64,000 bases of DNA from Micromonospora citrea (GTDB lineage: Bacteria > Actinomycetota > Actinomycetes > Mycobacteriales > Micromonosporaceae), in NCBI RefSeq assembly GCF_900090315.1, contig NZ_FMHZ01000002.1:1590501-1654500 (forward strand), given 5' to 3'. Positions 32,080-52,300 of the stretch are shown in pieces. The position numbers and the translations under genes are program-made. The notes beneath the pieces are model-generated. The model had not been told where the DNA came from. It searched no databases and was given only the letters and a program-made list of their open reading frames with translations. Numbering within the stretch: the first letter of the stretch is position 1; every line of letters begins with the position of its first letter.

Positions 32080-32907
32080 ATGGCCGCAGCCACCGACGCG
32101 GCGGTGCTGGTCGGGCTCGGCTCGGAGCGCAACCTGCCGGTGGTGCGGCTGGCCGCGCAGGAGGCCGCCGCACACGGCCGGCCGCTGTGCCTGCTGCACG
32201 CCTTCAACTGGACGGCGGCGCTGGAGGCGCCGTCGATCGCCGGTCCACGCGCCGAGGCCGAGGAGTTGATCTCCCGGGCCACCGAGATCGCGAACGAGGT
32301 CGAGCCGTCCCTGCCCGTCAGCGCGGAGATCATCGAGGGCGCGCCCGTGCCCACCCTGGTCCGCCGTTCCGAGTCGGCCTTCCTGCTCGCCATCGGCGAC
32401 GCCGGCATGGCGACCTGCGCGGACTGCGTACCGGCCGACGCGGCGGCGGTGCAGCTCGCCGCCCGGGCCGGGTGCCCGGTGCTGGTGGCCCGTCGGGAGC
32501 CGCCGCCCCAGGGCCCCGTGCTGGTCGGCGTCGACGGCTCCGACAGTTCCCGGGGCGCGCTGGAGTGGGCGTTCGATTGCGCGGCCCGGCGGGAGGCGCG
32601 GCTGCTCGCCGTGCGGGTCGTCGAGCCGGAGGAGGCCACCGAGGATCCCGACCTGCTCGTCGGGCTGGTCGCGCGGTGCGCGGACCGCTTCCCCTCGGTC
32701 GCGGCGGAGTGCCACACGATCCGCGGCGACCCCGGCACCGTACTGGTGGAGCAGTCCCGCTCGTCGCAGGTGGCGCTCGTCGCGGCCCGGGGCGACGAGC
32801 CGTGGCGGGGCATGCTCGGCGCGGTGAGCCAGGCGCTGCTCTACCACTCCCCCGCGCCGGTGATCGTGGTGCGCGGCCGGACGGGGATGCCGGCGGACGG
32901 GGCGTAA
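32080..32907 (+). CDS. Universal stress protein (double domain)
   Basis: A 275-residue protein with two UspA folds, residues 1-140 and 145-268. The second starts VLVGVDGSDSSRGALEWAF, the usual ATP-binding strand, but its late loop reads ARGDEPWRGMLGAVSQALL and the first repeat lacks the G-x2-G-x9-G pattern, so ATP binding may be partial. Double-domain USPs are typical members of the mycobacterial DosR regulon. GGAGG lies 9 bases before the ATG. It leads the stress cluster, upstream of the phosphoketolase. A half-site GGGACTA at 32027 is seen, too weak to call a regulator box. Confidence 0.88.
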   Translation: MAAATDAAVLVGLGSERNLPVVRLAAQEAAAHGRPLCLLHAFNWTAALEAPSIAGPRAEAEELISRATEIANEVEPSLPVSAEIIEGAPVPTLVRRSESAFLLAIGDAGMATCADCVPADAAAVQLAARAGCPVLVARREPPPQGPVLVGVDGSDSSRGALEWAFDCAARREARLLAVRVVEPEEATEDPDLLVGLVARCADRFPSVAAECHTIRGDPGTVLVEQSRSSQVALVAARGDEPWRGMLGAVSQALLYHSPAPVIVVRGRTGMPADGA

Positions 32908-32921
32908 CGCCCGGCCGGCGC

Positions 32922-32935
32922 AGGACCAACGGCCC
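32922..32935. promoter_or_regulatory. DevR/DosR-like box before phosphoketolase (13/14)
   Basis: AGGACCAACGGCCC matches the palindrome GGGNCNNNNGNCCC with one mismatch (first base). It lies 98 bases before the phosphoketolase ATG, in the 126-bp space after the stress-protein gene. Confidence 0.5.
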
Positions 32936-33033
32936 TGATCGACATCGGCGTCGAGCGGGAAGCTGAGATCGGCCCGGACGAATCCCCGCTCCGAGGATGC
33001 AGGATTCCCCTACCCGCGAGAGGCTCATGCAGT

Positions 33034-35436
33034 ATGGACACCGCTCTCGACCTGCACAGCCCCCTGACCGAAGACGAGCTGCGCCGGCTTGACGCCTACT
33101 GGCGGGCGGCCAACTACCTGACCGTCGGGCAGATCTACCTGCTCGACAATCCGCTGCTGCGCGAGCCGTTGGCACCCGAGCACGTCAAACCGCGACTGCT
33201 CGGCCACTGGGGCACCAGCCCAGGTCTGAACCTGCTCTACGCCCATCTCAACCGGGTGATCGTCGCCCGCGACCTGCACGCCATGTTCGTCACCGGTCCC
33301 GGCCACGGCGGCCCGGCGATCGTCGCGAACACCTGGCTGGAGGGCACCTGGAGCGAGCTCTACCACCACATCGGCCGCGACGAGGCCGGCATGGCCCGGC
33401 TGTTCCGCCAGTTCTCCTTCCCGGGCGGCATCCCGAGCCACGTGGCGGCGGAGGTGCCGGGCTCGATCCACGAGGGCGGCGAGCTGGGGTACGCGCTGAG
33501 CCACGCCTACGGCGCGGCGTTCGACAACCCCGACCTGCTGGTGGCCTGCGTCATCGGCGACGGGGAGGCGGAGACCGGCCCGCTCGCCGGGAGCTGGCTG
33601 TCGAACGTGTTCCTCAACCCGGCCCGCGACGGCGCGGTGCTGCCCGTCCTGCACCTCAACGGCTACAAGATCGCCAACCCCACGGTGCTGGACCGGATTC
33701 CCGACGACGACCTGCTCGCCATGATGCGCGGCTTCGGCTACCAGCCGTACGTGGTGGCCGGCGACGACCCGGCCACCGTGCACCAGACGCTCGCCGCCAC
33801 GCTTGACCGGGCGTTGGACGAGATCGCCGCCATCCAGCGGCGGGCCCGCTCCGGCGGCACCGTCGAGCGCCCCCGCTGGCCGATGATCGTCCTGCGTACG
33901 CCGAAGGGCTGGACGGGGCCCCGCGACGTCGACGGCAAGCGGGTGGAGGGCACCTACCGCGCCCACCAGGTGCCCCTGTCCGAGGTGCGCAAGAACCCGG
34001 AGCACCTGGCCGAGCTGGAGCGCTGGCTGCGCAGCTACCGGCCGGAGGAGCTCTTCGACGCCACCGGCGCGCCGGTCGCCGAGCTGGCGGAGCTGCCGCC
34101 CAAGGGCGAGCGTCGGATGAGCGCCAACCCGGTCACCAACGGCGGGCTGGTGCTGCGCGACCTGGCGCTGCCGGACTTCCGCGACTACGCCGTCGACGTG
34201 CAGAAGCCCGGCGAGACCGTGGCCGGGGCGACCGGCGCGCTCGGCCCGTGGGTACGCGACGTGATCACCGCCAACCCGCAGACGTTCCGCCTCTTCGGCC
34301 CGGACGAGGTCGCCTCGAACCGGCTCGGCGCGGCGTTCGAGGTCACCGACCGGGCCTGGGTGGCCGGGACGGTCCCCGGCGACGAGCACCTCTCGCCCGA
34401 CGGGCGGGTGATGGAGGTCCTCTCCGAGCACCTCTGCCAGGGCTGGCTGGAGGGCTACCTGCTCACCGGCCGACACGGCATCTTCACCAGCTACGAGGCG
34501 TTCATCCACATCGTCGACTCGATGGTCAACCAGCACGCCAAGTGGCTGAAGGTGACCCGGGGAATCCCGTGGCGCAAGCCGGTGGCCTCGCTGAACTACC
34601 TGCTCTCCAGCCACGTCTGGCGCCAGGACCACAACGGCTTCTCCCACCAGGACCCGGGCTTCATCGACCACGTGATGAACAAGAAGGCCGAGGTGGTACG
34701 CGTCTACCTGCCGCCGGACGCGAACACCCTGCTCTCCACCATGGACCACTGCCTGCGCAGCCGGCACTACATCAACGTGGTGGTGGCCGGCAAACAGCCC
34801 GCGCCGAACTGGCTGTCGATGGACGAGGCGATCCAGCACTGCCGGCGCGGCATCGGCATCTGGGACTGGGCCAGCACGGACGCGGGCAGCGAGCCCGACG
34901 TGGTGCTCGCCTGCGCGGGCGACGTGCCGACGCTGGAGACGCTGGCCGCGGCGGACCTGCTGCACAAGCACCTGCCGAGCCTGAAGGTGCGGGTCGTCAA
35001 CGTGGTCGACCTGATGCGCCTGCAGCCGCCGACCGAGCACCCGCACGGCCTGTCGGACAAGGAGTTCGACACCATCTTCACGCGGGACAAGCCGGTCATC
35101 TTCGCCTACCACGGCTATCCGTGGCTGATCCACCGGCTCACCTATCGACGGACCAACCACGACAACCTGCACGTGCGCGGCTACAAGGAGGAGGGCACCA
35201 CCACCACGCCGTTCGACATGGTGATGCTCAACGACCTGGACCGCTTCCACCTGGTCATCGACGTGATCGACCGGGTGCCGGGCCTGGCCGCCCGCGCCGC
35301 CCACCTGCGGCAGGAGATGGTCGACGCGCGGCAGTCCTGCCGGGACCACACCCGCGAGCACGGCGAGGACGACCCCCGGGTCGCGGAGTGGCGTTGGGTC
35401 CGCGAGACGGACCCCGGACTGCGCGGTGACCAGTGA
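33034..35436 (+). CDS. xfp: Phosphoketolase (xylulose-5-P/fructose-6-P)
   Basis: An 800-residue thiamine-diphosphate enzyme that splits xylulose 5-phosphate or fructose 6-phosphate with phosphate to give acetyl phosphate. It has the full family length: [20 protein letters not shown] near 87, [17 protein letters not shown] near 128, the TPP motif [14 protein letters not shown]...N near 170, [17 protein letters not shown] near 527 and the C-terminal [22 protein letters not shown] precedes the ATG by 10 bases. It is followed at 50 bp by a second stress-protein gene, likely one operon. In hypoxia, acetyl phosphate could give ATP without full glycolysis; that role is inferred. Confidence 0.95.
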
Positions 35437-35486
35437 GCGCGAGGAGTGAGCCTGCGAGCCCCGCAGCCGCGAACGAGGAGGTTTCG

Positions 35487-36359
35487 ATGGGCGACAACGA
35501 GATCCTGGTCGGCTACGACGGCTCCGCGGACGCCTCGGTCGCCCTCGAGTGGGCGTTGGAGGAGGCCGGCCGCAGCGGCCGGCCGGTCCGGCTGGCGTAC
35601 GTCTTCGAGTGGTTGACCGTGGCGAGCTGGGTCGGGCCGGGCGTCGCGCCGGGCATCTGGCCGGACGAGACGGCCCGCCGCCAGGTCGAGGAGCTGGTGA
35701 GCAAGGCGGCGGCCGACGCCTCCGCCGCGCACCCGGAGCTGACCGTCACCGGCGAGGTGTTCGACGGGCCGCCCGCGCTGGTGCTCCAGGAGCGCTCGGC
35801 GCAGGCCGCCCTGCTGGTGATGGGCACCCGCGGGCACGGCGGCTTCGGCGGACTGCTCGTCGGCTCCACCGCGGTCGCGGTGACCGCCCACGCGCACTGC
35901 CCGGTCGTGGTGGTCCGCGGCGAGGCCGCCGCCGGGGGGCGGGCCGGTCACGTCGCGGTCGGCGTGGACGGCTCCGAATGCTCGCTGCTGGCGCTCGGCT
36001 TCGCCTTCGAGCAGGCCGCGGCCCGGCGGGTGCCGCTGCACGTGGTGCGCGCCTGGCACCCGCCCGCCGGCCAGCGTCCGCCGTCGGGGCCCGAGGCGCG
36101 GGAGGCCACGGCGGCCGACCGGGCCGAGCTGGACGAGCCGATCGCCCGCTGGAGCCGGACGTTCCCCGACGTGGCGGTCACCGTCGAGGTGGCCCAGGGC
36201 AGCCCGGCGTCGCTGCTGGTCGACGCCAGCCGCAACGCGGCCCTGGTCGTGGTCGGCAGCCGGGGCCGGGGCGGCCTGACGGGGATGCTGCTCGGCTCGG
36301 TCAGCCAGCAGCTCATCCAGCACGCCCACTGCCCGGTCGCGGTGGTCCGGGAACGGTGA
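35487..36359 (+). CDS. Universal stress protein (double domain, ATP-binding)
   Basis: A 290-residue tandem UspA protein. Both repeats carry the full nucleotide-binding pattern: MGTRGHGGFGGLLVGSTA near 112 and VGSRGRGGLTGMLLGSVSQ near 256. The start ATG 35487 follows GAGGAGG by six bases; the frame is also open from GTG 35433, overlapping the end of the phosphoketolase gene, but that stretch has no homologous look. It closely resembles the DosR-regulated Rv2623 type of mycobacteria. It probably shares a transcript with the phosphoketolase and ends at a strong terminator. Confidence 0.92.
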   Translation: MGDNEILVGYDGSADASVALEWALEEAGRSGRPVRLAYVFEWLTVASWVGPGVAPGIWPDETARRQVEELVSKAAADASAAHPELTVTGEVFDGPPALVLQERSAQAALLVMGTRGHGGFGGLLVGSTAVAVTAHAHCPVVVVRGEAAAGGRAGHVAVGVDGSECSLLALGFAFEQAAARRVPLHVVRAWHPPAGQRPPSGPEAREATAADRAELDEPIARWSRTFPDVAVTVEVAQGSPASLLVDASRNAALVVVGSRGRGGLTGMLLGSVSQQLIQHAHCPVAVVRER

Positions 36360-36366
36360 GCGGAGG

Positions 36367-36405
36367 GGGCACCCCGGCGTCGGATCCCCGACGTGCGGGG
36401 TGCCC
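36367..36405. terminator. Bidirectional terminator
   Basis: GGGCACCCCG (36367-36376) pairs with CGGGGTGCCC (36396-36405), with an inner GTCGG/CCGAC stem. It separates the stress protein from the convergent ATPase gene. Confidence 0.7.
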
Positions 36406-36408
36406 TTC

Positions 36409-38754
36409 CTAACGCTCGCCGCCGGCCGGCGCGGCCGGGCTCAGCGAGAAGTATTCCTCTTCCTCCTGCGTCAGGTGCAGCCGGAGCACCGCCTCCAGGC
36501 CGTAGAGGGCGGCGAGCAGGTCGGTGAGCTGGTCCCGGCGCAGAGGGCCGTCGCCGGCCTGGGCGAGGTGCGCGCCGACGCGGTCCACCAGCCGCCGGAT
36601 CTCCACATGGGCACGGCTCATCGTCGAGGTCGCCTCGGCGCTGCCCAGCGGGTCGGCCAGCGCCGGGTAGAGGTGCCGCTCCTCGGCGGCCTCGTGGGGC
36701 AGCACCTCACCGGTCAGCCGCCGGTGCGTCTCGCGCAGCGCCGGCACGCACTCCGGCGCGTCGGGCCGGGTGGCGACCAGGTCGGCGGTGTCCCGCAGCC
36801 CGGCCAGCACGTCGCGGATCCCGCCGTGCTCGCCGGCGTACCGGTCGAGGATCTCGCGGGTGTCCGACGACACGTCGCGGCGGCGCAGCCCGCCCCCGAG
36901 CGCGCGCAACGCGTTGAGGATCACCAGCACGTCGATGCCCTCCTGGAGGAACGCCCCGGCGACCGGCGGCAGCCGCCCGACGGCGGCGACGAACATCGCC
37001 AGCACGGCGAGGCCCATCCCGACGGTGGCGCTCTGCACCGCGATGCGGCGGGCGTACCGGGCGATCTCCACCGCGTCGGCGAGCCGGTCCAGCCGGTCGA
37101 CGGTCAGCACCGCGTCGGCGACGTCGGCCGAGGCGGTCGCCCCGGTGGCGCCCATGGCCACCCCGACGTGCGCCTCGGCCAGCGCCGGGGCGTCGTTCAC
37201 CCCGTCGCCGACCATGACGGTGACCGCCCGGCCGGCCTCCTCGCGTACCCGGGCCACCTTCTCCGGCGGCGAGCACCGGGCCAGCACGTCGTCCACGCCG
37301 ACCGCCTGCGCGACCTGGGCCGCGGTGTCGGGCCGGTCCCCGGTCACCATCACGATGCGGCGCAGCCCCACCTCGCGGAGCCGGCGCACGGTGCGGCGGG
37401 CGTCGGGGCGCACCGGATCCTCCAGCACTATCGCGCCGAGCGGGCCGGCCTCGCCGCTGACCCAGACCACGGACCGGCCCGCCAGATCGGCCCGGGACCG
37501 GGCCCGCCGCGCCCACTCGGGCAGGTCCTCGTCGAGCTGACCGACGCGGACCAACCGCCCGTCGACGAACCCGCGTACGCCCCGCCCCGGCTCCTCGGTC
37601 ACCTCGGTCGGCTCGCTCAGCGACAGCCCCCGGTGGCGGGCCTGCGCCACCAGGGCGCGGGCCAGCACGTGCGGGGACAGCTGCTCGACCGAGGCGGCGA
37701 GGCGCAGCACGTCCTCCCGGTTCCCGCCGGGGGCGGCCTCGACCTCGGCGGCGCGGGGACGACCCGCGGTCAGCGTGCCGGTCTTGTCCACCAGCAGGAC
37801 GCGGGCCCGGCCGAGCAGTTCCAGCGAGCCGCCGTCACGGACCAGCACCCCGCGCCGGGCGGTCCGGGACAGCCCGGAGACGATGGCGATGGGGGTGGCC
37901 AGCAGCAGCGGGCACGGGGTGGCGACCACCAGCACGGCCACCGCCCGGACGAACTCGCCGGAGAGGAGCCAGCCGAGCCCTGCCAGGACCAGCGTGAACG
38001 GCACGAACGCGGCGGCGTACCGGTCGGCGAGGCGGACCATCGGCGCCTTGCGGGCGGTCGCCTCCTCGGCCAGCCGGACGATCCCGGCGTAGGTGCTCCC
38101 CGCCGCGTCCTTCGTGGCGCGCATCCCGAAACCGGCCCCGGCGTTGACCACACCACTGGCGACCTGCTCGCCGGCGGCGCGCCGCACCAGCCGGGACTCG
38201 CCCGTCACCGCCGACTCGTCCAGCGTCACCGGCTCGTCGACCTGCCCGTCGACCGGCACCACGTCGCCCGGGCCGACCAGCAGCCGGTCCCCCGCCGCCA
38301 CGGCGTCCAGCGGCACCTCCTCGACGCTCCCGTCCGGGCCGCGCCGCCGGGCGTTGCGGGGGGCACGGGCGAGCAGCGCGCGCAGGTCGCGGGTCGCCCG
38401 CCCCTGGGCGTACGCCTCCAGCGCCCGGCCGGTGACCAGCATCAGCGCGATCACGGCCCCGGCCAGGTACTCCCGCACGACCAGCGCGCCGGCCAGGGCC
38501 AGCACGGCGATCACGTCCACCCCGAACTGCCGGCGCCAGAGCTGCCGCAGCACGGACCACGCGGCGGGCGCCAGGGCGGCCACGGTGGCGAACGCCCACA
38601 CCAGGTCCGCCGCGTCGCGCCGGCGGGCGAGCCACAGCACGGCCCCGGCCAGCACCAGCGCCGTCACCCCGGCCAGCGGCGCCCACAGCAGCGGGCGCGC
38701 GCGCTCCCGCCGTACCGGCTGTTCCGGCACGCACTCCCGCGGCGGCGTTCCCAC
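36409..38754 (-). CDS. P-type metal ATPase fused to a C-terminal hemerythrin domain
   Basis: A 781-residue fusion. Residues about 25-620 form a P1B-like cation ATPase: two leading helix pairs, actuator VTGES near 185, membrane motif VATPCPLLLATP near 285, phosphorylation DKTGTLTAG near 330, SPHVLARAL near 370, MVTGDRPDTAAQ and GDGVNDAPALAEAH near 520. No N-terminal heavy-metal domain is present. Residues about 628-781 are a hemerythrin-type helical bundle with the iron-ligand pattern: EH in YAGEHGGIRD, LPHEAAEERHLYP, SRAHVEIRRL and LRLHLTQEEEEYF. The tail lies in the cytosol and may gate transport by oxygen, NO or iron. It starts with GTG and a weak ribosome site; an upstream box matches the DevR palindrome. 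The transported ion is unknown. Confidence 0.9.
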   Translation of the reverse strand: MGTPPRECVPEQPVRRERARPLLWAPLAGVTALVLAGAVLWLARRRDAADLVWAFATVAALAPAAWSVLRQLWRRQFGVDVIAVLALAGALVVREYLAGAVIALMLVTGRALEAYAQGRATRDLRALLARAPRNARRRGPDGSVEEVPLDAVAAGDRLLVGPGDVVPVDGQVDEPVTLDESAVTGESRLVRRAAGEQVASGVVNAGAGFGMRATKDAAGSTYAGIVRLAEEATARKAPMVRLADRYAAAFVPFTLVLAGLGWLLSGEFVRAVAVLVVATPCPLLLATPIAIVSGLSRTARRGVLVRDGGSLELLGRARVLLVDKTGTLTAGRPRAAEVEAAPGGNREDVLRLAASVEQLSPHVLARALVAQARHRGLSLSEPTEVTEEPGRGVRGFVDGRLVRVGQLDEDLPEWARRARSRADLAGRSVVWVSGEAGPLGAIVLEDPVRPDARRTVRRLREVGLRRIVMVTGDRPDTAAQVAQAVGVDDVLARCSPPEKVARVREEAGRAVTVMVGDGVNDAPALAEAHVGVAMGATGATASADVADAVLTVDRLDRLADAVEIARYARRIAVQSATVGMGLAVLAMFVAAVGRLPPVAGAFLQEGIDVLVILNALRALGGGLRRRDVSSDTREILDRYAGEHGGIRDVLAGLRDTADLVATRPDAPECVPALRETHRRLTGEVLPHEAAEERHLYPALADPLGSAEATSTMSRAHVEIRRLVDRVGAHLAQAGDGPLRRDQLTDLLAALYGLEAVLRLHLTQEEEEYFSLSPAAPAGGER

Positions 38755-38809
38755 CTGCGGATCGTCTCAGCGTCCGCCGGCCCGGGGAGGCCATCCGGGC
38801 GAACCGGCG

Positions 38810-38823
38810 GGGGCGAAGTGCCC
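38810..38823. promoter_or_regulatory. DevR/DosR-like box between ATPase and nitroreductase (13/14)
   Basis: GGGGCGAAGTGCCC matches GGGNCNNNNGNCCC with one mismatch. It lies 56 bp before the ATPase start (minus) and about 120 bp before the nitroreductase start (plus), so it could serve both divergent genes. Confidence 0.45.
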
Positions 38824-38943
38824 TGCCGCGCCGGGACCTGCGTACCGTGCGTGGTCGTCGGGCATGTCGCAGGATGGAGCGGCAACCCGGCCCGGGGCAC
38901 GTCGGGCTGGGGCACGATGGGGAGAAACGGAAAGGTCGTGACG

Positions 38944-39954
38944 ATGAGCCACGAGACGCCGGCTACGGGCCGCCCGCTGACCACCGCCCTGGCGGAGGCC
39001 GCCGCGACGGCCGGGCACGCCCCGTCGGTGCACAACAGCCAACCGTGGCGCTGGCGGGTGCTGCCGGACGCGTTGGAGCTGCGCGTGGTGCGCGACGCCC
39101 GGCTGACCGCGACGGACCCGGAGGGGCGGCTGGTGGCGTACAGCTGCGGGGCTGCGCTGCACCACGCGCGGGTGGCGCTGACCGCGGAGGGCTGGACGGC
39201 CGTGGTGGAGCGGATGCCCGACCCCGACGAGCCGGACCTGCTGGCCCGGCTGACCGGGTTGGCCCGCGCGGAGGCCGACCCGGAGGCCATGCGCCTGGTG
39301 CAGTGCATGCAGGTGCGACACACCGACCGGCGCCCGGTCAGCGAGGAGCCGGTGCCCACGGCCGCCCTCGGGCAGATCGCCTCGGCGGTCACCGCCGAGG
39401 GGTGCCAGCTCCAGTTCCTCGACCGCGACAACGTGATGGAGTTGGCCGCCGTGGCCAGCCACGCCGCGTCGGTCGAGGCGGAGGACCCGCAGCTGCGCGA
39501 GGAGTTGCTGTACTGGACCAGCCGCGCCGGCACCGGCACCGGCCTGCCGCCGGAGGTGCTGCCCGAGGAGGCGCCGCAGACCACCGTGCCCGGCCGCGAC
39601 TTCGGCCGCCCCGGCACCCTGCCGGTCGGTCCGGGGCACGACCGGGCGGCCGTCTACGGGCTGCTCTACGGCGACGAGGACGAGCCGGACAGCTGGCTGC
39701 GCGCCGGCGAGGCGCTCTCGGCGGCCTGGCTGACGGCCACCCGGCTCGGGGTCTCGGTGGTGCCGCTCAGCGGCGTGGTGGAGGTGGCGGGCACCCGGCA
39801 GACGCTGCGTGGGCTGCTGGCCGGTCTCGGCTACCCGTACCTCGTCATGCGGCTGGGGATCGCGGACCCGGCGCACGCCGGGCCGCCGCACACCCCGCGG
39901 CTCGCGGTGGCGCAGGTGGTGGACACCTCGGCGGTACGCGACGCGGGCGCGTAG
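38944..39954 (+). CDS. Acg-family nitroreductase-like protein
   Basis: A 336-residue protein of the Acg/Rv3131 family, a double nitroreductase fold. The N-terminal FMN-type motif APSVHNSQPWRWRV lies near 25; other family marks are VQCMQVRHTDRRPVSEEPV near 120 and the C-terminal GVSVVPLSGVVEV and PYLVMRLGI. In mycobacteria these proteins are among the most strongly DosR-induced; some are thought to sequester FMN rather than reduce nitro compounds. It is divergent from the ATPase-hemerythrin gene. An AAAGG site precedes the ATG; an in-frame GTG lies 6 bases upstream. Confidence 0.88.
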   Translation: MSHETPATGRPLTTALAEAAATAGHAPSVHNSQPWRWRVLPDALELRVVRDARLTATDPEGRLVAYSCGAALHHARVALTAEGWTAVVERMPDPDEPDLLARLTGLARAEADPEAMRLVQCMQVRHTDRRPVSEEPVPTAALGQIASAVTAEGCQLQFLDRDNVMELAAVASHAASVEAEDPQLREELLYWTSRAGTGTGLPPEVLPEEAPQTTVPGRDFGRPGTLPVGPGHDRAAVYGLLYGDEDEPDSWLRAGEALSAAWLTATRLGVSVVPLSGVVEVAGTRQTLRGLLAGLGYPYLVMRLGIADPAHAGPPHTPRLAVAQVVDTSAVRDAGA

Positions 39955-39965
39955 CGGCGCAGCCC

Positions 39966-40038
39966 GGCGCGTGGCCGGGCAGCCCGCGCCGCGGCACGGC
40001 CGGCGCGTAGCCGGGCAGCCCCGCGCCGCGGCACGGTA
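39966..40038. repeat. 36/37-bp tandem repeat, two copies
   Basis: Two near-identical units (39966-40001 and 40002-40038), each beginning GGCGCGT(G/A)GCCGGGCAGCCC and ending in GCGGCACGG, follow the nitroreductase; a third copy starts (GGCGCGT) and fades. The arms are self-complementary and may end transcription. Confidence 0.7.
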
Positions 40039-40135
40039 GGCGCGTCACGGCAGGGCCCGGCCGGGAGGGCGGCCGGCGGCGGTCGGCGCGCCCGGGCGCT
40101 TGGCGGCCCCTCGGGTCGAGGCCATCGGGCGATAA

Positions 40136-41878
<1,743 letters not shown>

Positions 41879-41895
41879 CAGAGATGATGTTGATG

Positions 41896-42047
41896 AGCAC
41901 CTCCCGCCGAGGTCTGACCCAGCGACTGACTGACTTCGGGTCCTTAACCGGATTTGTCGGCCTCGGTCGGGAGGTGCTTGTGCACTCACTGGACGTGGCG
42001 TTGTGACTTCATAGGAGCCTGGCCAGAGGCCCCATCTCTGTCTTGTC
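41896..42047 (+). ncRNA. Candidate IS110 bridge RNA
   Basis: The non-coding end can fold as a bridge RNA. A first stem pairs 41896-41912 (AGCACCTCCCGCCGAGG) with 41961-41978 (17 bp, one bulged T), closing a 48-base loop. That loop contains GCGACTGAC (41922-41930), identical to the genomic flank at 41871-41879, as expected of a left target guide. A second loop contains CATAGGAGC (42010-42018), identical to the element's right end, and CATCTCTGTC (42033-42042), complementary to its left end, as expected of the two donor guides, with a small GCCT/AGGC hairpin between them. Exact RNA ends and the basal stem of the second loop are not clear by eye. Confidence 0.55.
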
Positions 42048-42103
42048 CGCGTTGCCCGGCTGGTGCGTGCCGCCCTGCCCCAGTCACGAGCGACAGGACG
42101 ACG

Positions 42104-43174
42104 ATGCCTCCTATTACACCTGACCAAGCCGAGATCGAGGTCGCCGGTGGAGTCGACACGCATCAGGACACGCACACCGCGGCGGTGATCGACCTGGTCG
42201 GGCGAGTGCTGGGTACCCAGCAGTTCCCCACCACAGGGGCTGGGTACGCCGCTCTGCTGGCCTGGATGCGTGGGTTCGGCCGGGTGTGGCGGGTCGGGGT
42301 CGAGGGAACCGGCGCCTACGGGGTAGGACTCGCCCGCCGGCTACGTGGCGAAGGTGTCGAGGTGATCGAGGTCGATCGACCCCACCGTAAGACCCGCCGT
42401 TTCCAGGGCAAGTCCGACCCGATCGACGCCATCGCAGCGGCTAAGGCCGCCCTGGCCGGCGAGCGGACCGGCATCCCCAAGCAGCGCGACGGCCGCGTCG
42501 AAGCTCTGCGTAACCTACGGGTGGCCCGCCGCAGCGCGGTCGACCAGCGCGCCGACGCCCAGCGCCAGATCAAGGCCTTGATCGTCACCGCTCCCGACGA
42601 GCTGCGTGCCCGGCTGCGCGGCCTGACCGTCACGCGGCTGATCGCCACCTGCGCAAACCTGCGGCCCGATCGGACCGACGCCGCGACCCCGGCCACCGCT
42701 GTCAAGATCGCCCTACGTTCCCTGGCCCGCCGCCACCAGCAGCTGTCCACCGAGATCGCCGACCTGGACGAGCTGCTCGAACCGCTGGTGGCCGCCATCA
42801 ACCCCAGCCTGGTCGCCGTCAACGGCGTCGGCGCCGATGTCGCCGGCCAACTGCTGGTCACCGCCGGCGAGAACCATGATCGGCTCACCTCCGAAGCCGG
42901 GTTCGCCATGCTCTGCGGCGCCGCCCCGATCCCCGCGTCCTCCGGCAAGACCACCCGACACCGACTCAACCGCAGCGGTGACCGACAGGCCAACGCCGCC
43001 CTCTACCGCGTCGTGCTCTGCCGCCTGCGCTGGGACCCCCGCACCCGCGCCTACGCCGAACGACGCACCAAGGAAGGCCTGTCCAAGAAAGAGATCATCC
43101 GATGCCTCAAACGCTACATCGCCCGCGAGCTCTACCAGCTCATCACAACAAATGATCTTCAACTCGCCGCTTGA
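42104..43174 (+). CDS. IS110-family transposase (DEDD recombinase)
   Basis: A 356-residue transposase. The N-terminal DEDD RuvC-like domain starts GGVDTHQDTHTAAVID (first Asp) and continues with VEGTGAYGVGLARRL (Glu) and KSDPIDAIAAAKAAL (the Asp pair). The C-terminal transposase_20 domain has VNGVGADVAGQLLV and FAMLCGAAPIPASSGKTTRHRLNRSGDRQAN with the catalytic serine region. Full length, no frameshift, so the element may be active. The ATG follows AGGACG. The family uses a bridge RNA from the element end to choose donor and target. Confidence 0.95.
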   Translation: MPPITPDQAEIEVAGGVDTHQDTHTAAVIDLVGRVLGTQQFPTTGAGYAALLAWMRGFGRVWRVGVEGTGAYGVGLARRLRGEGVEVIEVDRPHRKTRRFQGKSDPIDAIAAAKAALAGERTGIPKQRDGRVEALRNLRVARRSAVDQRADAQRQIKALIVTAPDELRARLRGLTVTRLIATCANLRPDRTDAATPATAVKIALRSLARRHQQLSTEIADLDELLEPLVAAINPSLVAVNGVGADVAGQLLVTAGENHDRLTSEAGFAMLCGAAPIPASSGKTTRHRLNRSGDRQANAALYRVVLCRLRWDPRTRAYAERRTKEGLSKKEIIRCLKRYIARELYQLITTNDLQLAA

Positions 43175-43234
43175 CATCCATAGGAGCATCCCTCGCCCCT
43201 CTTCCCCGCCCTCTCCCCGCCCCTTCCGGCCCGC

Positions 43235-43301
43235 GATCTTGCACTTGCTGCCCCGGCATACGGGGCAAGTGCCTCATTTCGGGGGCAGGAACTGCAAGGT
43301 C
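43235..43301. repeat. Intergenic palindromic element with alternative hairpins
   Basis: GATCTTGCACTTGCTGCCCC (43235-43254) pairs with 43281-43301 over about 17 of 20 positions. Inside, TGCCCCG and CGGGGCA around GCATA (43249-43267) form a second hairpin that competes with the outer stem. It lies downstream of devR (minus) and may end its transcript. Its form resembles dispersed palindromes I recall from Micromonospora intergenic regions. Confidence 0.55.
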
Positions 43302-43349
43302 GACGCGGGAGGGAGCGGGTGCGGCGGCGGGGAGGTGGAGTGCGGTGGG

Positions 43350-43988
43350 TCAGTGGGTCTTGCCGAGGAGGCGGGTGGCGAGGACCGCCGCCTGGGTACG
43401 ACGCTCCAGGCCGAGCTTGGCCAGCACACTGGAGACGTAGTTCTTCACCGTCTTCTCGGCCAGGAACATCTTGCCGGCGATCTCCCGGTTGGTGAGGCCC
43501 TCGGCCACGTACTCCAGGATCCGCCGCTCCTGCTCGGTGAGCGACTTCAGCTCGCGGGGCTGCTCGACGCCGCTGCGGATGCGCTCCAGCACGCGGGTGG
43601 TGATCGCCGGGTCGAGCAGCGACTGGCCGGCCGCCACCCGGCGCACCGCGTCGACCAGGTCGGTGCCGCGGATCTGCTTGAGCACGTAGCCGGCCGCGCC
43701 CGCCATGATCGCCGCGAAGAGCGCCTCGTCGTCCTCGTAGGAGGTGAGGATCAGGCCCTTGATCGACGAGTCCACGGCCCGCACGTCCCGGCACACGTCG
43801 ATGCCGTTGCCGTCGGGCAGCCGCGCGTCGAGAATCGCCACGTCGGGCCGCAGGGCCGGGATGCGACGCGCCGCCTCCTGGGCCAGGCCGGACTCGCCGA
43901 CCACCTCGATGTCACCGCTGCTCTGCAGCAGGTCGGCCAGGCCACGACGGACGACCTCGTGGTCGTCGAGCAGGAACACGCGGATCAT
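43350..43988 (-). CDS. devR: NarL/FixJ-family response regulator (DevR/DosR-like)
   Basis: A 212-residue regulator. The receiver (1-120) has DDHEVVRRGL at 8-17, the phospho-acceptor Asp in VAILDARLPDGNG near 54, the switch Thr in LILTSYEDDEA and Lys in YVLKQIRG near 104. A linker leads to a LuxR-type helix-turn-helix (about 148-205): LTEQERRILEYVAEGLTNREIAGKMFLAEKTVKNYVS, whose recognition helix AEKTVKNYVSSVL is almost that of mycobacterial DosR. It is convergent with the DevS-like kinase and divergent from an Acg-type nitroreductase, with three exact palindromic boxes in the shared promoter region, so it probably regulates both directions. Confidence 0.92.
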   Translation of the reverse strand: MIRVFLLDDHEVVRRGLADLLQSSGDIEVVGESGLAQEAARRIPALRPDVAILDARLPDGNGIDVCRDVRAVDSSIKGLILTSYEDDEALFAAIMAGAAGYVLKQIRGTDLVDAVRRVAAGQSLLDPAITTRVLERIRSGVEQPRELKSLTEQERRILEYVAEGLTNREIAGKMFLAEKTVKNYVSSVLAKLGLERRTQAAVLATRLLGKTH

Positions 43989-44024
43989 CCCTAGTTTCTA
44001 CCCCCTCCCCGCCGGACTCCGCAC

Positions 44025-44038
44025 GGGCCGAAGGTCCC
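44025..44038. promoter_or_regulatory. DevR/DosR-like box 1 (exact)
   Basis: GGGCCGAAGGTCCC matches GGGNCNNNNGNCCC at all eight fixed positions. It lies 37 bp upstream of the devR start, suggesting autoregulation. Confidence 0.6.
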
Positions 44039-44182
44039 GAACCGCCACAACCCGGCCGCCGGGGCGGTCGTCGGGACGCCGGCGGGCCGGGCCGACCGCC
44101 TCCCCGCCGGGGGCCGGTAGAGCGTGACCTGGGACGGAGCCCGTGCCCCGGGACGGGCCGGTGGGCCGGGGCGCCGTTCGCC

Positions 44183-44196
44183 GGGCCGAAGGTCCC
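44183..44196. promoter_or_regulatory. DevR/DosR-like box 2 (exact)
   Basis: The same 14 bases as box 1, GGGCCGAAGGTCCC, occur 158 bp away and about 130 bp before the nitroreductase start. A 13/14 match, GGGCCGGTCGGGCC, follows at 44209-44222. Confidence 0.6.
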
Positions 44197-44231
44197 TGAG
44201 CTGGCACGGGGCCGGTCGGGCCCGGCGGGTC

Positions 44232-44245
44232 GGGACGTCCGGCCC
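44232..44245. promoter_or_regulatory. DevR/DosR-like box 3 (exact)
   Basis: GGGACGTCCGGCCC matches all fixed positions of GGGNCNNNNGNCCC, 81 bp upstream of the nitroreductase ATG, a usual distance for activation. Confidence 0.55.
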
Positions 44246-44326
44246 TGCCCGCTCCCCGCCCCGCTGACGCACCGTGGAGATGTACCGGACGGGGGCGGCA
44301 CGAACTGCCACGGAAGGAGCACAACC

Positions 44327-45301
44327 ATGGACACCGGCTTCACCGTCGAGCAGCTGAGGGCCGCCGCGACCGACGCCGTACGGGCGCCGTCGCTGCACAA
44401 CACCCAGCCGTGGCGGTTCCGGCTGCGCGACGGCGGCATCGAGGTGCTGGTCGACCCGGCCCGGCGCCTGCCGGCCACCGACCCCAACGGCTGGGGCGTC
44501 CGCATCGCCTGCGGGGCGGCGCTGTTCAACCTGCGGCTCTCCCTGGCCGCCGCCGGCACCCCGGCGAAGGTGCGGCTGCGCCCCTACCCGGCCGAGCCGG
44601 ACGTGGTGGCCCGGCTGGTCCCGGACGTTCCGCGCCGCCCCACCCCCGCCGAGCAGGCCCTGCACGCGGCGATCCCCCGCCGGTTCAGCAACCGGGCGCC
44701 GTTCTGGCCGGACCCGGTGCCCGCCGACGCCCGCTGGCGGCTGGGCGAGGCCGCCCGCGCCGAGGGATGCTGGCTGGAACTGCTGATCGGGGTCAGCGCG
44801 GTGAACGCGTTCGCCGAGATCGCCCGCAGCGCCCACCGGGTCCTCGAACGCGACCCGGCGTACGTGGCCGAACGACAGGAATGGGTGCGCTCGGCACCCG
44901 CCCCCGACGGCGTGCCGGCCTCCTCCGGCGGCCCGCAGGGCGAACCGCAGGACCTGCTGCCCTCCCGGGGCTTCGGCGGGCTGAACCGGGCGCCGGGACG
45001 GGACTTCGAGCCGGAGCCGCTGGTCGCCGTACTCGGCTCGCCCGGCAACACCGCCGTCGACCAGGTCGCCGCCGGGCAGGCGTTGCAGCGGGTGCTGCTG
45101 GCGGCCACGGACTCGGGGCTGGCGGTGTCGATGCTGTCCCAGCCGATCGAGGTGCCCAGCGCCCGCGAGCAGTTGCGGCTGTCGCTGGGACGGTTCGGCA
45201 CCCCGCAGATGGTGATGCGCATCGGGTACGGCCAGCCAGGCTGGCCGACCCCCCGCCGAGACGTGGACGAGGCGCTGGACATGCCGGTCGTGCGGTCGTG
45301 A
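44327..45301 (+). CDS. Acg/Rv3131-family nitroreductase-like protein
   Basis: A 324-residue member of the same family as the protein at 38944. The N-terminal motif APSLHNTQPWRFRLRDGG lies near 20, then RRLPATDPNGWGVRIACGAALFNLRL, the RRFSNRAPFW block near 115 and the C-terminal GLAVSMLSQPIEVP and PQMVMRIGYGQPGWPTPRR. GGAAGGAG precedes the ATG. It is divergent from devR, the same arrangement as Rv3131 next to devR-devS in Mycobacterium tuberculosis, and has DevR-like boxes in its promoter. The FMN-linked activity is inferred from the family. Confidence 0.9.
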   Translation: MDTGFTVEQLRAAATDAVRAPSLHNTQPWRFRLRDGGIEVLVDPARRLPATDPNGWGVRIACGAALFNLRLSLAAAGTPAKVRLRPYPAEPDVVARLVPDVPRRPTPAEQALHAAIPRRFSNRAPFWPDPVPADARWRLGEAARAEGCWLELLIGVSAVNAFAEIARSAHRVLERDPAYVAERQEWVRSAPAPDGVPASSGGPQGEPQDLLPSRGFGGLNRAPGRDFEPEPLVAVLGSPGNTAVDQVAAGQALQRVLLAATDSGLAVSMLSQPIEVPSAREQLRLSLGRFGTPQMVMRIGYGQPGWPTPRRDVDEALDMPVVRS

Positions 45302-46307: not shown

Positions 46308-49300
46308 CTACCGCCTCACCACACTACATGCCGCCCAGTGACATGTGCCCATGCCAGGTTGGACCAGAGTGCTGAGCAGAGTGGGCTCGCTAACCCTCTT
46401 GGATCCCTCGCGAACCCTGAGACCACTCGCGGGCAGCAGAGTGAAGTTCGGCATGGATTCCCCAGAGCGATAGATTTTCACCGGCGCGGGGGAGGATCGT
46501 CCACTCTCGACCCTGAAGGCGTCCGTGTCCAGCAACTTCTTGGAGTAGGGCACGTAGACAGCGATCTCCGTGCCCTCCGGGACGGTGAAGTTGCCGTTCG
46601 CAGTGTCGTGCTTTCCGTGCCCGGCGAACACCACTTCACCGTCCGGACGCCCGCCTGGCATGATCGCTTTAGGCGGTGCCGGAGCAGCACGGGTACGCGC
46701 GGCATCCTCCGCCCGAGTGAGGATGTCGTCGGCCCACTTCCTGTTCTCCGCCCAGGTCATCAGGGCAGAACCCGCCCGACGGAGGGTGTCGACGATCGGA
46801 TCGATCTTCTTAATCAGCTTGATGGCCTTGCCCCAGGGCACCATGTCGATGAGCGCCCAGGCACACGCCTTTAGATCACCTCCGATACAGCCCATGATGT
46901 CGTTGATGCCGAAGAACTCGAGCAGAAGTTGACCGCCCGCCTTGACGATGATGTCAATGGCGTTCTGCTTCTTGACTTCCTTGGCGCGTTTGATCTGTTC
47001 GTCGGTCGGGCCGCCGTTCTTTCCGCCCTTGCCGCCGCCGTTGCCGCCGCCGGCCTCGTGTGCCGCCCGGGCCGCAGCCCAGTCGTCGTCGCCGCACTTC
47101 CCGCCGCAACCGTCGTTGTCGGCCTTGACGTCGTGGTAATTGCCATACATGTCCTCGTAGTCGCCATTGCAGGCGTCATCGGAGCAGGACTTGAGGCCGG
47201 TCGGGTCGGCGAAGGTGACCGGGCTGTTGTTGCCGTAGGCGTAGGCGTTCCACTGCTGCGGGTCCTTCAGATCCTGGATCGGGTCCACCGAGATGAACCG
47301 TCCCAGGCCAGGGTCGTACTGCCTGGCCCCGATGTTGGTCAGACCCGTCGGGTCCTTGTCGCCGCCGACGAAGCCCTTGCTGTTCGTCCACTGCGGCTGG
47401 CCCCCGCGCGGGCCGCCGTACGGGGTCTGCCGGCGGACGCTGACCGCCTGGGTGCCGGCGTCGATCGCGGTCTGCTGGGTGCCCTGGTGGTCGGTGTAGA
47501 GCCAGGTCAGCCCGGTCGGGGTCCGGTTGCCTACCGTCTTGCCGGCGAAGCTGTAGTAGCGGGTGCCGGTGACGACCGAGGTGTTCTCGCGCCGGATCTC
47601 CTGGCCCGGCAGGTAGAGGGTGGTGCCGGTGGCGTCGCGGCGGATCAGCCGCACGCCGCTCGCGTCGTAGATGTTGGTCTCGACGGTCTGCCCACCCGCG
47701 CTCACCGAGGCGAGCTTGCCCTCGGAGTTCCAGTTCAGCGTCTGGGAGTTGGTTCCGCTGTCGCAGGCGTTGGCGGCGCTGCCCGTCGGCCGGCAGGTCA
47801 TGTTGCCGGCGTCGTCGTACGCGTACTTCGTGGTGACCGCGGACTGCCCCGGCGCCTGGGTGACGACCTCGGTGACGGCGTGCGGGCGCACGACGTCCTT
47901 GCCGCTGTCGGGCGTCGTGTAGGAGCGGGTGGTGTCGCCGGCAGACGTGTGCACCTTCTCGCTGCTGCGGTTGCCGACGTCGTCGACGGTCCACTCGTGC
48001 CAGTACTCGGCCGGGCCGCCCAGGTTCGGCACGCTCGGGTCCGCGGCGCAGTCGATGCCGGACTTCGGCGTCCACGCGTTGGTCATCCGCCGCAGTTCGT
48101 CGTAGCGGAAGCACTGGGTGTCCGCCGCCCCGACCTCCGGGGTGTCCGCGATCGACAGGATGTTGCCGGCCGCGTCCCGGGTGAACCGGGTGTCCGCCAC
48201 CGTGCCGGTCGCGGTCTCCGGCTTGATCTTCACCCGGTCAACCCGACGGGTGGTCAGGTCGTAGTACGTGGTGTCCTGGACGTACACCCCGCCGTCGACC
48301 TTGCGGGTGGTCAGCGTCGGCTCACCGTACTGGGTGTAGTCCTGGCCGATGACGTAGCGGCCGACGTTGATCAGGTTGGTGGCCAGCTCCGTCGGCAGGC
48401 CGGTGACGGCGTCGAACTTCGTCTCGACCTTCTCGGTGGTGAGGCTGCCGCCGGCCGGGTACGTGATGCTGGCCGGGCTGCCGTCGTACGGCGAGTAGCC
48501 GTAGGCGTAGATCCACGTGCCGGCCAGGTTGGCGCCCTCGTTGGCCGGGATGACGTAGTTCGCGCCGGTCGGCTGGTAGCGGGTGTTGAAGCCCCGCACC
48601 TGCCACTTGTAGGCGTTGGCGGAGCCCGCCGACTCGTACCGGATGCTCTGGGTGAGCTGACCGCGGACGACCTGGCCGCTGTAGAGCTTGTCGTACCTCC
48701 ACTCGGCGAGCTTGTTCGCCGCCGCGATGCTGCCCTGGTAGAGGCCGATCCGGCGGCCCAACGAGTCGTACTCGTTGACGAGCACGTTGTCGTTGGCGTC
48801 GGTGGTCGACTCCACCTGGTCGTACACCGTGTAGGTGGTGGTGGTCGTGCCCTTGTCCGGGTCCTTCGCGGTGATCTGCCGGCCCTTGACGTCGTAGGTG
48901 TTGACCCACTCGTTGCCGCCGGTGTCCTTGACCAGCGTCAGCTGGCCCTTGCGGTTGTAGCTGTAGGTGGTGACGTGGTCGGGCTTGACCCCGGTCCGGT
49001 CGGGCCGCTGCCGCAGCTCAAGCGTCCGTCCCTCGATGTCCGTCTTCGTCGTGGTGATGGTGCCGCCGACCGGCGGGGTCACCACCGTGGTGTCGCCCAG
49101 GTAGCGGGTGGTGGTGCGCCACTTCTCGACGAGGTTGGTGACGCCGTCGGTGCCATAGAAGATCGCGTCGGTGGCCCGGGAGGCGTTGTCGTAGACCATC
49201 TTCGTCAGCGCCGGCACCGACCACTCCGGCTCCCACCAGAGCGCCCCGCTCGGCGCGCCCGGTTCGGCGTGCGCCTGGTAGGTCGTCACCGCCCGGCCGG

Positions 49301-52300
49301 TCGCGTCGTACAGCGTGTCGGTGACCACCCGGTCGCCGCCCACGCCGGCCTTCTGCGTCTGGCGCGGCCGCAGGAGGGCGTCCTTGATGTCGTACGACGT
49401 GAGGTAGCCGCCGCCGGCGTGGAGCACCCGGCTCTTCGTATACGGGTAGGCGTCCTTGTTCGGGGCGTAGTGGTAGGTGTATTCGACGGAAGGGCTCGTC
49501 GGATTCTCCGACTTCAACCAGCCGGCCTTCCAGCCCCGGGCCAGCCGGCCCATCGGGTCGTACTCCATGTCGGCGACCCGACCGTTGTAGTCCGTGGTCC
49601 GGATCGGCTGACCCCAGTAGGGCCGGGTCTCGATGGTGGTGGTCCAGTCGGTGGTGCTGCCGTTCGGGTCAGGCGTCTTCGTGACAACCTTCGTGACCGG
49701 TCCACCGGTGGCCGGCGTGTACTCCGTGGTCGCCGTTCGGCCGCGCACGTCGGTGGCGGTCTTCGGCCGCCCGTACGCGTCGAAGGTGGCCTGGCTGACG
49801 GTCTGCCAGACGGTGCCCCCGGCGGCCGACCAGTCACTGAGCTTGTCGACCCGGGTGACCGCGCCCGTGGTCGGCGCGGCGTCGATGCTGGTGGCGCCGT
49901 CGTAGAACTTCCGCTCGTCGGCGACGATGTCGTCCTGGGTCGCGGGCTCGGTCGCGCACGGCACCGCCTTGACGGTAAGCCGCTTGACCGTCTGCGTGAT
50001 GTTCGCAGCGGTGTTTCGCGTGTACTGATACGTGGTGCACTTCTCGTCGCCCGTCTTGGCGACGTCGCCGTCGGCCTGAACGGTCTCGATGGTGCCGTAC
50101 GTGTCGTGGAAGGTCGACACGTTGCGCGAGGTCCGCCACCCGGCGGCGCCGTCCACGCCAATGGCGACGGCGCTGTACGCGATCCGGGTGTTGGTCCAGC
50201 GGGCGGTGACCTCGTCGCCGTTGATGGTGCGGGTGGCGAGCGCCGGCGAGCGCCACGGCACGTTCACGGTCTTGCTGACCGGCTTGGTGTCGACGCCGTT
50301 GTAGACGACCTGTTCGCGCACCATGCCGGCGAACTGGTCCTCGTCGTACACCGTCTCGCTGCCCAGGGACGCCGCGACGGTGACGCTGCGGCTGCCGCCG
50401 GTCTTGGTGAGCCGGTCGCCGTGCATGCCGCGCAGGAAGGTGGTGCGGGTCAGGGTCTGCGCCGGGGCGTCGCCCTTGCGCACCTCGACCTGGGCGAAGC
50501 CGCGGAACTGGTTCCACGTCTTGCGCTTCGGCTTGACCAGCCCGTTGTCGTCGGCGTAGTGCCAGGCGGGGTCGCCGAGGAACCGGTAGTAGGTGTTCTG
50601 CACCGGCTGGCCCCGGTCGGAGCCGTTGGCGACGACCATCAGGTCGGACTCGGACACCTGCTTCACGACGTACTTGTGCCAGTACTCGGTGAGTTCCTTG
50701 CTGGAGTCGTACGGGTCGGGGCCGACCACCGGGTAGCAGAGCCGGGTGTTGGTCTCCGGCGCCGACGGCAGGCTGCTGGCGGTGCAGTCGGGCAGGCTGT
50801 AGGTGACCTGGATCTTGCCGCCGGTCTCGGTGACGATGTTGCCGATCCGCATCCGGTTGTTGCTGGTGTTGTTCTTGGTGAGCACCCGGTTCGGCATCGA
50901 CACCGGCACGAAGGTCACCGCCGGCATGGTCTCGGTGCCGCCGACGAGGCCCTTGTACTGCACCGAGCTGAGCCACATGCCCGCGTGGTCGCTGCCGTCA
51001 CCGACGGCCGGGTAGGTGTGGCCGAGCGTCCACGAGTCGACGGGCTGCCAGGCCGGGGTGGTCTTGGTGGTGTCCCACACCTGGGTGGTGACGGTGGACA
51101 GCCGCTTGGTGGTCCAGAACGTCGGACCGTAGTTCTCCTTGCAGTCCGCCGCGCCGGCCGTGCACTCCTGGTCCCACGGCACGTCCTTCCAGTGCGCCGC
51201 GTCCTTGACGTGGCAGTCCGCCGCGCAGCGGTCGACGCTGGTCAGCACGACCTGCGCGAGGGGGGTCACCGACCGGTCGGTGGCGCCACGGTCCCAGGTG
51301 CCGTAGTCGATCCGCTTGAGCACGCCGCCCCGGGTGTAGAGGGCCTTGTTGGTCGAGGTGGCGTTCTTGCCGTAGTAGTTGGTCTCCTTGTCGTACCAGT
51401 ACGACAGGGTGTTGCCGCGCGGGTCGACGACGTAGTCGAGGTTCCACCGCCAGGTCTGGTTGCAGAACGACGAGGCGAACGACGAGACGTTGCACGGCTC
51501 GTCGGCGTGGTTGCCGGCGACGGGGACGGTCCAGGCGGAGTTCGTCGCGCTGCCCTGCCCCGGCAGGTTGTTGAGGCCGAAGAAGTACTGCACGCCGTCG
51601 GACGTGGTGACCTTCCAGTGCTCACCGTTGTCGTCGCCGTTGCCGGCGCCGGTCAGCTTCTCGATCTTCGAGCCGTCCTCGTTGCGGGTGTGCCACCCCT
51701 TGCCGGTCTCGAAGATGAGCTCGCCGCCGCGCCCGTTCAGCGACAGGGTGGCGTTGTCGGACCGCCAGCACTGGTCGCCGGTGCGGTTGGTGCTGTTGTT
51801 GCCGCCGGTCATGTCGTCGGCGCACGGCACGTAGCTGCGCTCGATGTAGCCGGACCAGAGGTCGAAGCCCTCACCGACCCAGGACGGCTGGCTGTTCGAC
51901 GCGTCCGACTGGCCGTCGACCTTGTCCGAGGTGTAGGACAGGCCCAGGGTCGGCGCCGGGCCGCCGACGGCCGGCGGCATCCGCATCGGGTACGACCAGC
52001 TGAACCCGCCCGTCGACGTGCCCGCCGACCAGGTGGCGCTGGCCGACATCGGGGTGGCGGAGAAGTCGCCCTCGGGGCCGGAGGAGCCGGCCGCCAACGC
52101 CACGAGCGTGGCGGCGGATCCGGCGACCCGCGCGTCCGCCGGGACCGACACCTCGGCGGTGACGGAGCCGCCGTCGTTGCGGGACTTCAGCGGCGTGGCC
52201 GCGCATCCGGTCTTCTCCGGCGTGCGCAGCCCGCACTCCGGCACCTGCCACAGCCTGAGCCGGGACGACCAGTTGCCGCCGAAGGCGTGCCTGAAGCCGC

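Follow-up and report, generated by a model that had tools for sequence, protein, structure and literature searches.

A gene block in Micromonospora citrea as the probable core of a DevR/OsdR low-oxygen regulon

The closest described relatives of the system analyzed here are OsdK-OsdR of Streptomyces coelicolor and DevRS/DosT of Mycobacterium tuberculosis. OsdR is an orthologue of DevR with a regulon centred on SCO0167-SCO0219 and the consensus AGGGCCGATCGGCCCT, and sites AGGGACCTTCGGCCCC were predicted before SCO0216 and SCO0167 (PMC5069765). For M. tuberculosis, the DosR consensus was given as NNNGGGHCNWWNGNCCCBNN (PMC2947987); Acg-family genes are DosR targets, the function of Acg as a nitroreductase being doubted (PMC3110807); and DevR binds close-packed sites cooperatively, the proximal one of which overlaps the -35 element (PMC3029386). 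Acetyl phosphate was used to phosphorylate OsdR (PMC5069765) and DevR (PMC3029386) in vitro. We analyzed a window, that is, the whole stretch of 64,000 nucleotides (G000:C2:1590501-1654500) of the 7.2-Mb genome of Micromonospora citrea, where positions 32080-45301 hold a block of genes resembling these systems. M. citrea is a soil bacterium from a genus that is non-pathogenic and produces antibiotics.

We consider this block to be the core of the Micromonospora DevR/OsdR low-oxygen regulon, with a probability of about 0.9. Its regulator gene (43350-43988, minus strand) encodes a DevR/OsdR-type response regulator with a receiver domain and a GerE/LuxR helix-turn-helix domain (NarL-type; Pfam). 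In a comparison limited to the solved structures of PDB, DevR was the best match (3c3w, E 9.5e-72), followed by VraR (7.5e-44). The alignment with DevR is ungapped over 207 residues with 120 identities, counted from the match line; it places an Asp at the position of DevR Asp54, and the recognition helix is the same as in DevR, the residues being identical through MFLAEKTVKNYVS. The best-scoring paralogue in the same genome has 44% identity, while the best named relatives, 95-99% identical, come from Micromonospora, one of them being labelled only Micromonosporaceae. Judged by best match, 43350-43988 is the orthologue of devR.

The sensor kinase (40145-41878, plus strand) has the Pfam architecture GAF-GAF-HisKA_3-HATPase and is DosT/DosS/OsdK-like: its first GAF domain matches DosT (2vzw) with E 7e-55 and DevS structures with 2.1e-51 to 2.4e-50. 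Residues H150, Y172 and G88 are constant in 41/41 congeneric rows, including the window, and the position of H150 is His in 50 of 54 rows from named loci, some of which are also Micromonospora; Gly88 aligns with Glu in the printed DevS row of 4ynr. The other genes of the block lie together as in the preliminary description, at or near the positions reported there: usp1 and usp2, encoding tandem universal stress proteins (USPs; 32080-32907 and 35487-36359, plus strand, both identified by Pfam); xfp, encoding a phosphoketolase with the Pfam domains XFP_N, XFP and XFP_C (33034-35436, plus strand); a P1B heavy-metal P-type ATPase gene (36409-38754, minus strand); and acg1 (38944-39954, plus strand, upstream of the kinase gene) and acg2 (44327-45301, plus strand, divergent from the regulator gene), encoding Acg/Rv3131-family oxidoreductases that bind flavin mononucleotide (NCBIfam NF047509, 277.6 and 312.6 bits, respectively, at a cut-off of 199). 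For the kinase, we take H150 and Y172 to stand at the places of the heme-ligand histidine and the distal tyrosine.

The regulator, kinase, box and several targets match DevR/DosR-OsdR, so that the earlier proposal of a DosR/DevR-like system is borne out in kind. With S. coelicolor the locus shares the DevR-type regulator, the DosT-like kinase and the USP, nitroreductase-family and nitrate reductase targets, which there lie around the regulator gene; with M. tuberculosis it shares the orthologous regulator (120/207 identical), the heme GAF kinase, the Acg-family genes and the USPs. Unlike in S. coelicolor, where osdR-osdK is an operon, the kinase gene lies behind acg1 and converges on the regulator gene in the window and in 40/40 congeneric loci. 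The kinase-regulator operon is a trait of the S. coelicolor locus and not of the DosS/DosT/OsdK family as such. The locus differs from M. tuberculosis in gene order and in a box core of higher GC content than the consensus in PMC2947987.

Conservation was analyzed across 61 Micromonospora genomes, own genome included, 54 of which had a regulator match at E <= 1e-60. Of the 53 matching relatives, 40 were picked for room on the contig; their stretches of approximately 18 kb and the window make up 41 loci, in which best matches were found for acg1, the kinase, the regulator and acg2 in all 41, for usp1, xfp and usp2 in 38, and for the ATPase in 27. Exact boxes were counted in the 350 base pairs (bp) preceding each gene, with thirteen half-sites made of G and C serving as controls.

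The palindrome GGGNCNNNNGNCCC, previously reported as exact at 44025, 44183 and 44232, is indeed found at all three positions, which lie within the 338-bp gap between the regulator gene and acg2. As it occurs 584 times per strand in the 7,208,999 bases of the genome, about 0.026 exact boxes are expected in this gap, in agreement with the earlier estimate of well under one, and the Poisson probability of three or more is 3e-6; the gap was picked after the fact, and about 0.06 such stretches are expected genome-wide (7.2 Mb/338 bp x 3e-6). Predicted DevR box A (GGGCCGAAGGTCCC, 44025..44038) has its centre 43 bp upstream of the regulator start codon, an extra box with the same core is found at 44183..44196 as an exact match to GGGNCNNNNGNCCC, and predicted primary box B (GGGACGTCCGGCCC, 44232..44245) precedes acg2, with the predicted secondary box B' (44209..44222, one mismatch) 23 bp before it.

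The gap between the regulator gene and acg2 contains two or more exact boxes in every one of the 41 loci; its length varies from 159 to 338 bp, with one gap of 1183 bp. Box A is exact in 41/41 loci, its centre lying 42-44 bp upstream of the regulator start, and in the 40 loci whose gap is shorter than 700 bp box B precedes acg2 by 61-141 bp. These 40 gaps hold 84 exact sites versus 0-6 per control half-site, and acg2 is preceded by an exact box in 40/41 loci. A third exact box was found in three of the 40 relatives (L127, L141 and L150), none having the core of 44183. In 40/41 loci TTCTAC is found no more than 22 bases from the regulator start codon; read on the gene strand, it may belong to a -10 element of a leaderless message. 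The boxes at 44025 and 44183 fit the DosR consensus of PMC2947987, whose skeleton the preliminary description had recognized in the palindrome. That description had also taken the box for the block's own, and this did not hold: the exact 14-bp core of both sites, GGGCCGAAGGTCCC, is contained in the reverse complement of AGGGACCTTCGGCCCC, the predicted OsdR site of S. coelicolor (PMC5069765).

The predicted phosphoketolase box (AGGACCAACGGCCC, 32922..32935) has one mismatch in the window and a position conserved in relatives, and a secondary box, also with one mismatch (32899..32912), lies 23 bp before it. An exact box centred 75-107 bp upstream of xfp was found in 34 of 38 loci (controls 0-7), the misses being the window, L139, L141 and L148. 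Between the divergent ATPase gene and acg1, a box with one mismatch in the window (38810..38823) stands where relatives have exact boxes before acg1, followed at 23 bp by a second one with one mismatch (38833..38846); an exact box precedes acg1 in 22/41 loci (controls 0-10).

Three promoter regions of the block thus carry box pairs 22-23 bp apart, or two helical turns. This spacing was first noticed in the window, and all spacings from 15 to 60 were scanned afterwards, allowing at most two mismatches in total, with neighbouring spacings overlapping. Pairs at spacings 23 and 22 were found before xfp in 29/38 and 28/38 loci (mean outside 21-24, 1.05), before acg1 in 10/41 and 16/41 (mean 1.02), and before acg2 in 23/41 and 28/41 (mean 5.38). 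Before acg2, spacings 55 and 56, at which boxes A and B form the pair, also reach 19 each, and spacings 32 and 33 reach 15 and 17. No pairs at spacings 21-24 were found before usp1, usp2 or the kinase gene across the loci scanned.

Conservation of the boxes in related genomes, on which the preliminary description had made its proposal depend, is therefore observed in the 41-locus set. We take the predicted boxes to be real on the ground of this conservation at orthologous positions. One-mismatch copies of GGGNCNNNNGNCCC number 113 in the window, compared with 210 expected from shuffles; because they are fewer than chance would give, their count was rejected as evidence. The one-mismatch copies at 32922, 38810 and 44209, previously listed as lying before candidate members, accordingly lose their weight by number and retain it by place, since they sit where relatives keep boxes. 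A genome-wide excess was likewise rejected as evidence, none being found with strict patterns.

Several observations weigh against this interpretation. The numbers of genomic sites were 12 for GGGMCSWWSGKCCC versus 16 in the backward control, and 30/28 for GGGHCNWWNGNCCC versus 35/41. In the window, the copies at 32922 and 38810 each have one mismatch, while many relatives have an exact box there, the window itself being among the misses for the exact boxes of xfp, acg1 and the ATPase gene. Among loci with the gene order of the window, acg1 has an exact box in 20 of 38, two of the 22 boxed loci (L146 and L147) being differently ordered. The ATPase gene has one in 13/27 loci with controls of 0-14, and this box is weak taken alone, since one control half-site reaches 14/27. 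Exact boxes precede usp1 in 0/38, usp2 in 1/38 and the kinase gene in 0/41 loci, which does not support their earlier listing as members. No regulator match at E <= 1e-60 was obtained in seven of 60 relatives (G004, G014, G016, G040, G052, G054 and G056), for which loss and an assembly gap look the same, as all are draft assemblies of 130-890 contigs. The usp1-xfp-usp2 part is missing in three of the 40 relatives (L145-L147), where the order of the acg genes is also different, and the kinship of the 40 congeneric loci limits the counts of conservation. Outside the genus, only 19 of 71 named loci show an exact box in front of the regulator gene, with controls of 2-10. A PP2C gene was also scanned, and an exact box was present in 0/19 preceding 350-bp regions.

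The regulon had been thought to be gathered in one block. The conserved boxes found elsewhere, however, suggest a regulon extending over several loci with the block as its core. The narG gene, found in 12/61 genomes and lying beside the regulator gene in S. coelicolor (PMC5069765) but approximately 1.6 Mb away on the contig here, has a box in 10/14 loci, paralogues included (controls 0-2). A P2-type ATPase gene followed by USP genes, found in 26/61 genomes, has a box in 24/26 loci (controls 1-10), one of the two misses (L235) matching only from residue 411. A gene for a membrane protein of 191 residues, found in 51/61 genomes, has a box in 24 of its 30 best loci (controls 0-4).

The ATPase gene at G000:C2:1046101 has P2-type Pfam domains; in NCBIfam it matches calcium-type models best, at scores under their cut-offs. 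The metal ATPase of the block, which the preliminary description had equated with CtpF, is instead of the P1B heavy-metal type; as we take CtpF to be a P2-type ATPase, the gene elsewhere is presumably its better counterpart.

The family of the 191-residue membrane protein is without a Pfam or NCBIfam match, and its two copies in the M. citrea genome (G000:C2:1219914-1220486 and 813822-814385) both have a DevR-like box about 90-120 bp upstream; the box at 813703 additionally lies within the 5' portion of a divergent CBS-BON gene when this gene is read at its greatest length. A relative of this protein is encoded about 3 kb or less from the regulator gene in G047, G020 and G029.

Genome-wide, 12 sites match the strict pattern: two in the window and ten in seven other stretches, three of which gave the narG, P2-type ATPase and membrane protein loci compared across the genus. 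Single-genome DevR-consensus sites lie at G000:C2:1468459, between a divergent flavohemoglobin/Rrf2 pair, and at G000:C2:6980987, before cytochrome bd subunit I, both of which are possible targets; further sites of M. citrea are at 738540 (before a cupin/YwiC pair), 61392 and 1048642. In L185, L186 and L189 the strict-pattern sites fall inside predicted genes, as do several wider-pattern sites in L267-L280.

Outside the genus, USP homologues near devR have a box in 16/28 loci (controls 0-4). We rejected the idea that phosphoketolase is a DevR target throughout the class, as an exact box within 300 bp was found in only one of 23 usable loci outside the genus. The xfp gene is present in 137 of 246 genomes of the class, and 27 of its 30 best loci are outside the genus, one of these 27 being boxed (controls 0-4); the figure of 23 leaves out L289, L300, L309 and L310, where a contig end is near the gene. 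Where xfp lies near devR in other genera, a box was found in 2/8 loci (L027 and L068), L052 being left out as wrongly cut.

The palindromes could also be the operators of another regulator, the DevR-like protein being merely adjacent. Related regulators are indeed many, with 74 matches to the query in the genome, some to one domain only, and palindromes rich in G and C are common, as the 584 copies per strand show. We nevertheless hold this to be very unlikely: predicted OsdR sites share the identical core, and the recognition helix equals that of DevR. OsdR bound the tested predicted sites in gel shifts, as well as mycobacterial DevR targets (PMC5069765). Moreover, the box accompanies the regulator gene in 41/41 loci and known target families elsewhere (Acg, NarG and USPs outside the block). 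Still less credible, to the point of being extremely improbable, is that the boxes are accidents of base composition or DNA of recent descent in a genome rich in G and C. The lack of a genome-wide excess and the deficit of one-mismatch copies would fit such accidents; yet box A is held at 42-44 bp in every locus despite gaps of 159-338 bp (one of 1183), few control half-sites of G and C turn up in these gaps, and three promoter regions share the spacing of 22-23 bp. The position of box B, at 61-141 bp before acg2, is looser than that of box A.

A different question is whether the regulon is real and its signal is not oxygen, the kinase reporting the redox state, nitric oxide (NO) or development. 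Accelerated development of OsdR mutants and the statement that the activating signal awaits confirmation (PMC5069765) speak for this possibility, which we regard as somewhat unlikely. In the same S. coelicolor study, low oxygen and an NO donor induced osdR and its neighbours (PMC5069765). The predicted targets in Micromonospora include narG and hemerythrin proteins. The positions of the heme His and Tyr are kept in the kinase, with Gly88 where the printed DevS row of 4ynr has Glu.

Beyond the gene identities, the orthology by best match and the box positions and their conservation, which are shown above, we infer the signal, phosphotransfer, binding, cooperativity, direction of control and operon structure of the proposed DevR/OsdR low-oxygen regulon as follows. 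The heme-GAF kinase (40145-41878) probably senses the loss of oxygen, or NO or carbon monoxide, and would phosphorylate the DevR-type regulator (43350-43988). The phosphorylated regulator would bind the GGGNCNNNNGNCCC palindromes, cooperatively at tandem pairs 22-23 bp apart, and may thereby activate three promoter regions: one for its own gene and divergent acg2; one for the P1B ATPase gene and, divergent from it, acg1 followed by the kinase gene; and one for xfp and usp2, which probably form one operon. It would also act on the scattered loci of narG, the P2-type ATPase with USPs and the small membrane protein. The outputs may be Acg oxidoreductases, phosphoketolase with USP and perhaps metal export, and, elsewhere, nitrate reductase. 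Phosphoketolase would yield acetyl phosphate and hence adenosine triphosphate (ATP) via acetate kinase, which is encoded elsewhere in the genome. As OsdR and DevR are phosphorylated by acetyl phosphate in vitro, a feed-forward loop suggests itself, in which low oxygen would act through DevR and phosphoketolase to raise acetyl phosphate, giving both ATP, by acetate kinase, and a kinase-free phosphorylation of DevR, so that the dormancy programme is held on; we regard this loop as speculative and unlikely.

Since a clustered OsdR regulon has already been published for S. coelicolor, the Micromonospora system is not new in kind. It is new in detail, as far as predicted sites and gene identities go: the phosphoketolase box pair is conserved genus-wide and not general to phosphoketolase genes elsewhere, the kinase gene lies behind acg1 and converges on the regulator gene, and a hemerythrin-bearing P1B ATPase is part of the block. 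Phosphoketolase is absent from the target table and main text of PMC5069765, and no report of its control by DosR or OsdR was found in the literature searched, in which no study of a DevR/OsdR system in Micromonospora was found by title either. The analysis extends a well-studied dormancy switch to Micromonospora with genus-wide evidence for the predicted sites and makes the promoter architecture explicit as box pairs two helical turns apart. It also suggests a distinction between targets that Micromonospora shares with Streptomyces and mycobacteria and ones recruited in a single lineage, namely phosphoketolase.

Among the neighbouring genes of the block, usp1 is a conserved neighbour, xfp is found in the window and in 37/40 congeneric loci, and the ATPase gene in the window and in 26/40. 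The ATPase (36409-38754) exceeds two NCBIfam heavy-metal cut-offs and is thereby of the heavy-metal and not the P2-type cation class; it has a C-terminal hemerythrin domain and is P1B-5-like. Its ligand motif, read by eye against the P1B-5 motif of PMC9388753, consists of H, HxxxE, HxE and HxxxxE; the hemerythrin-like domain and the first three elements agree with the P1B-5 ATPases described there, whereas the last element is HxxxxD in that paper and the adjacency of a DevR box is unmentioned in its available part.

An IS110-family transposase gene (42104-43174, plus strand; NF033542 above cut-off), which the preliminary description did not list and which is not part of the system, sits between the convergent kinase and regulator genes. 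A tblastn search of the 40 congeneric stretches (approximately 18 kb each) gave zero matches to it at 1e-15. The two genes are tail to tail with a gap of 5-329 bp in 38/40 congeneric loci, and the two others hold different insertions (L149, 3878 bp; L150, 2584 bp), so that this gap appears to tolerate insertions. A plasmid search with the IS region gave, among the matches listed, only relatives of IS110 elements. A dispersed repeat of about 100-150 bp lies at 43188-43345: of the 65 matches that the query 41880-43345 has in the M. citrea genome, at least 58 map to the final 160 bases of the query, frequently in both orientations, as an imperfect palindrome would, with 40 of 722 first candidates scored. 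Finally, positions 46308-52868 (minus strand) encode a protein of 2186 residues resembling, by eye, an Rhs-repeat protein with a variable C-terminus.

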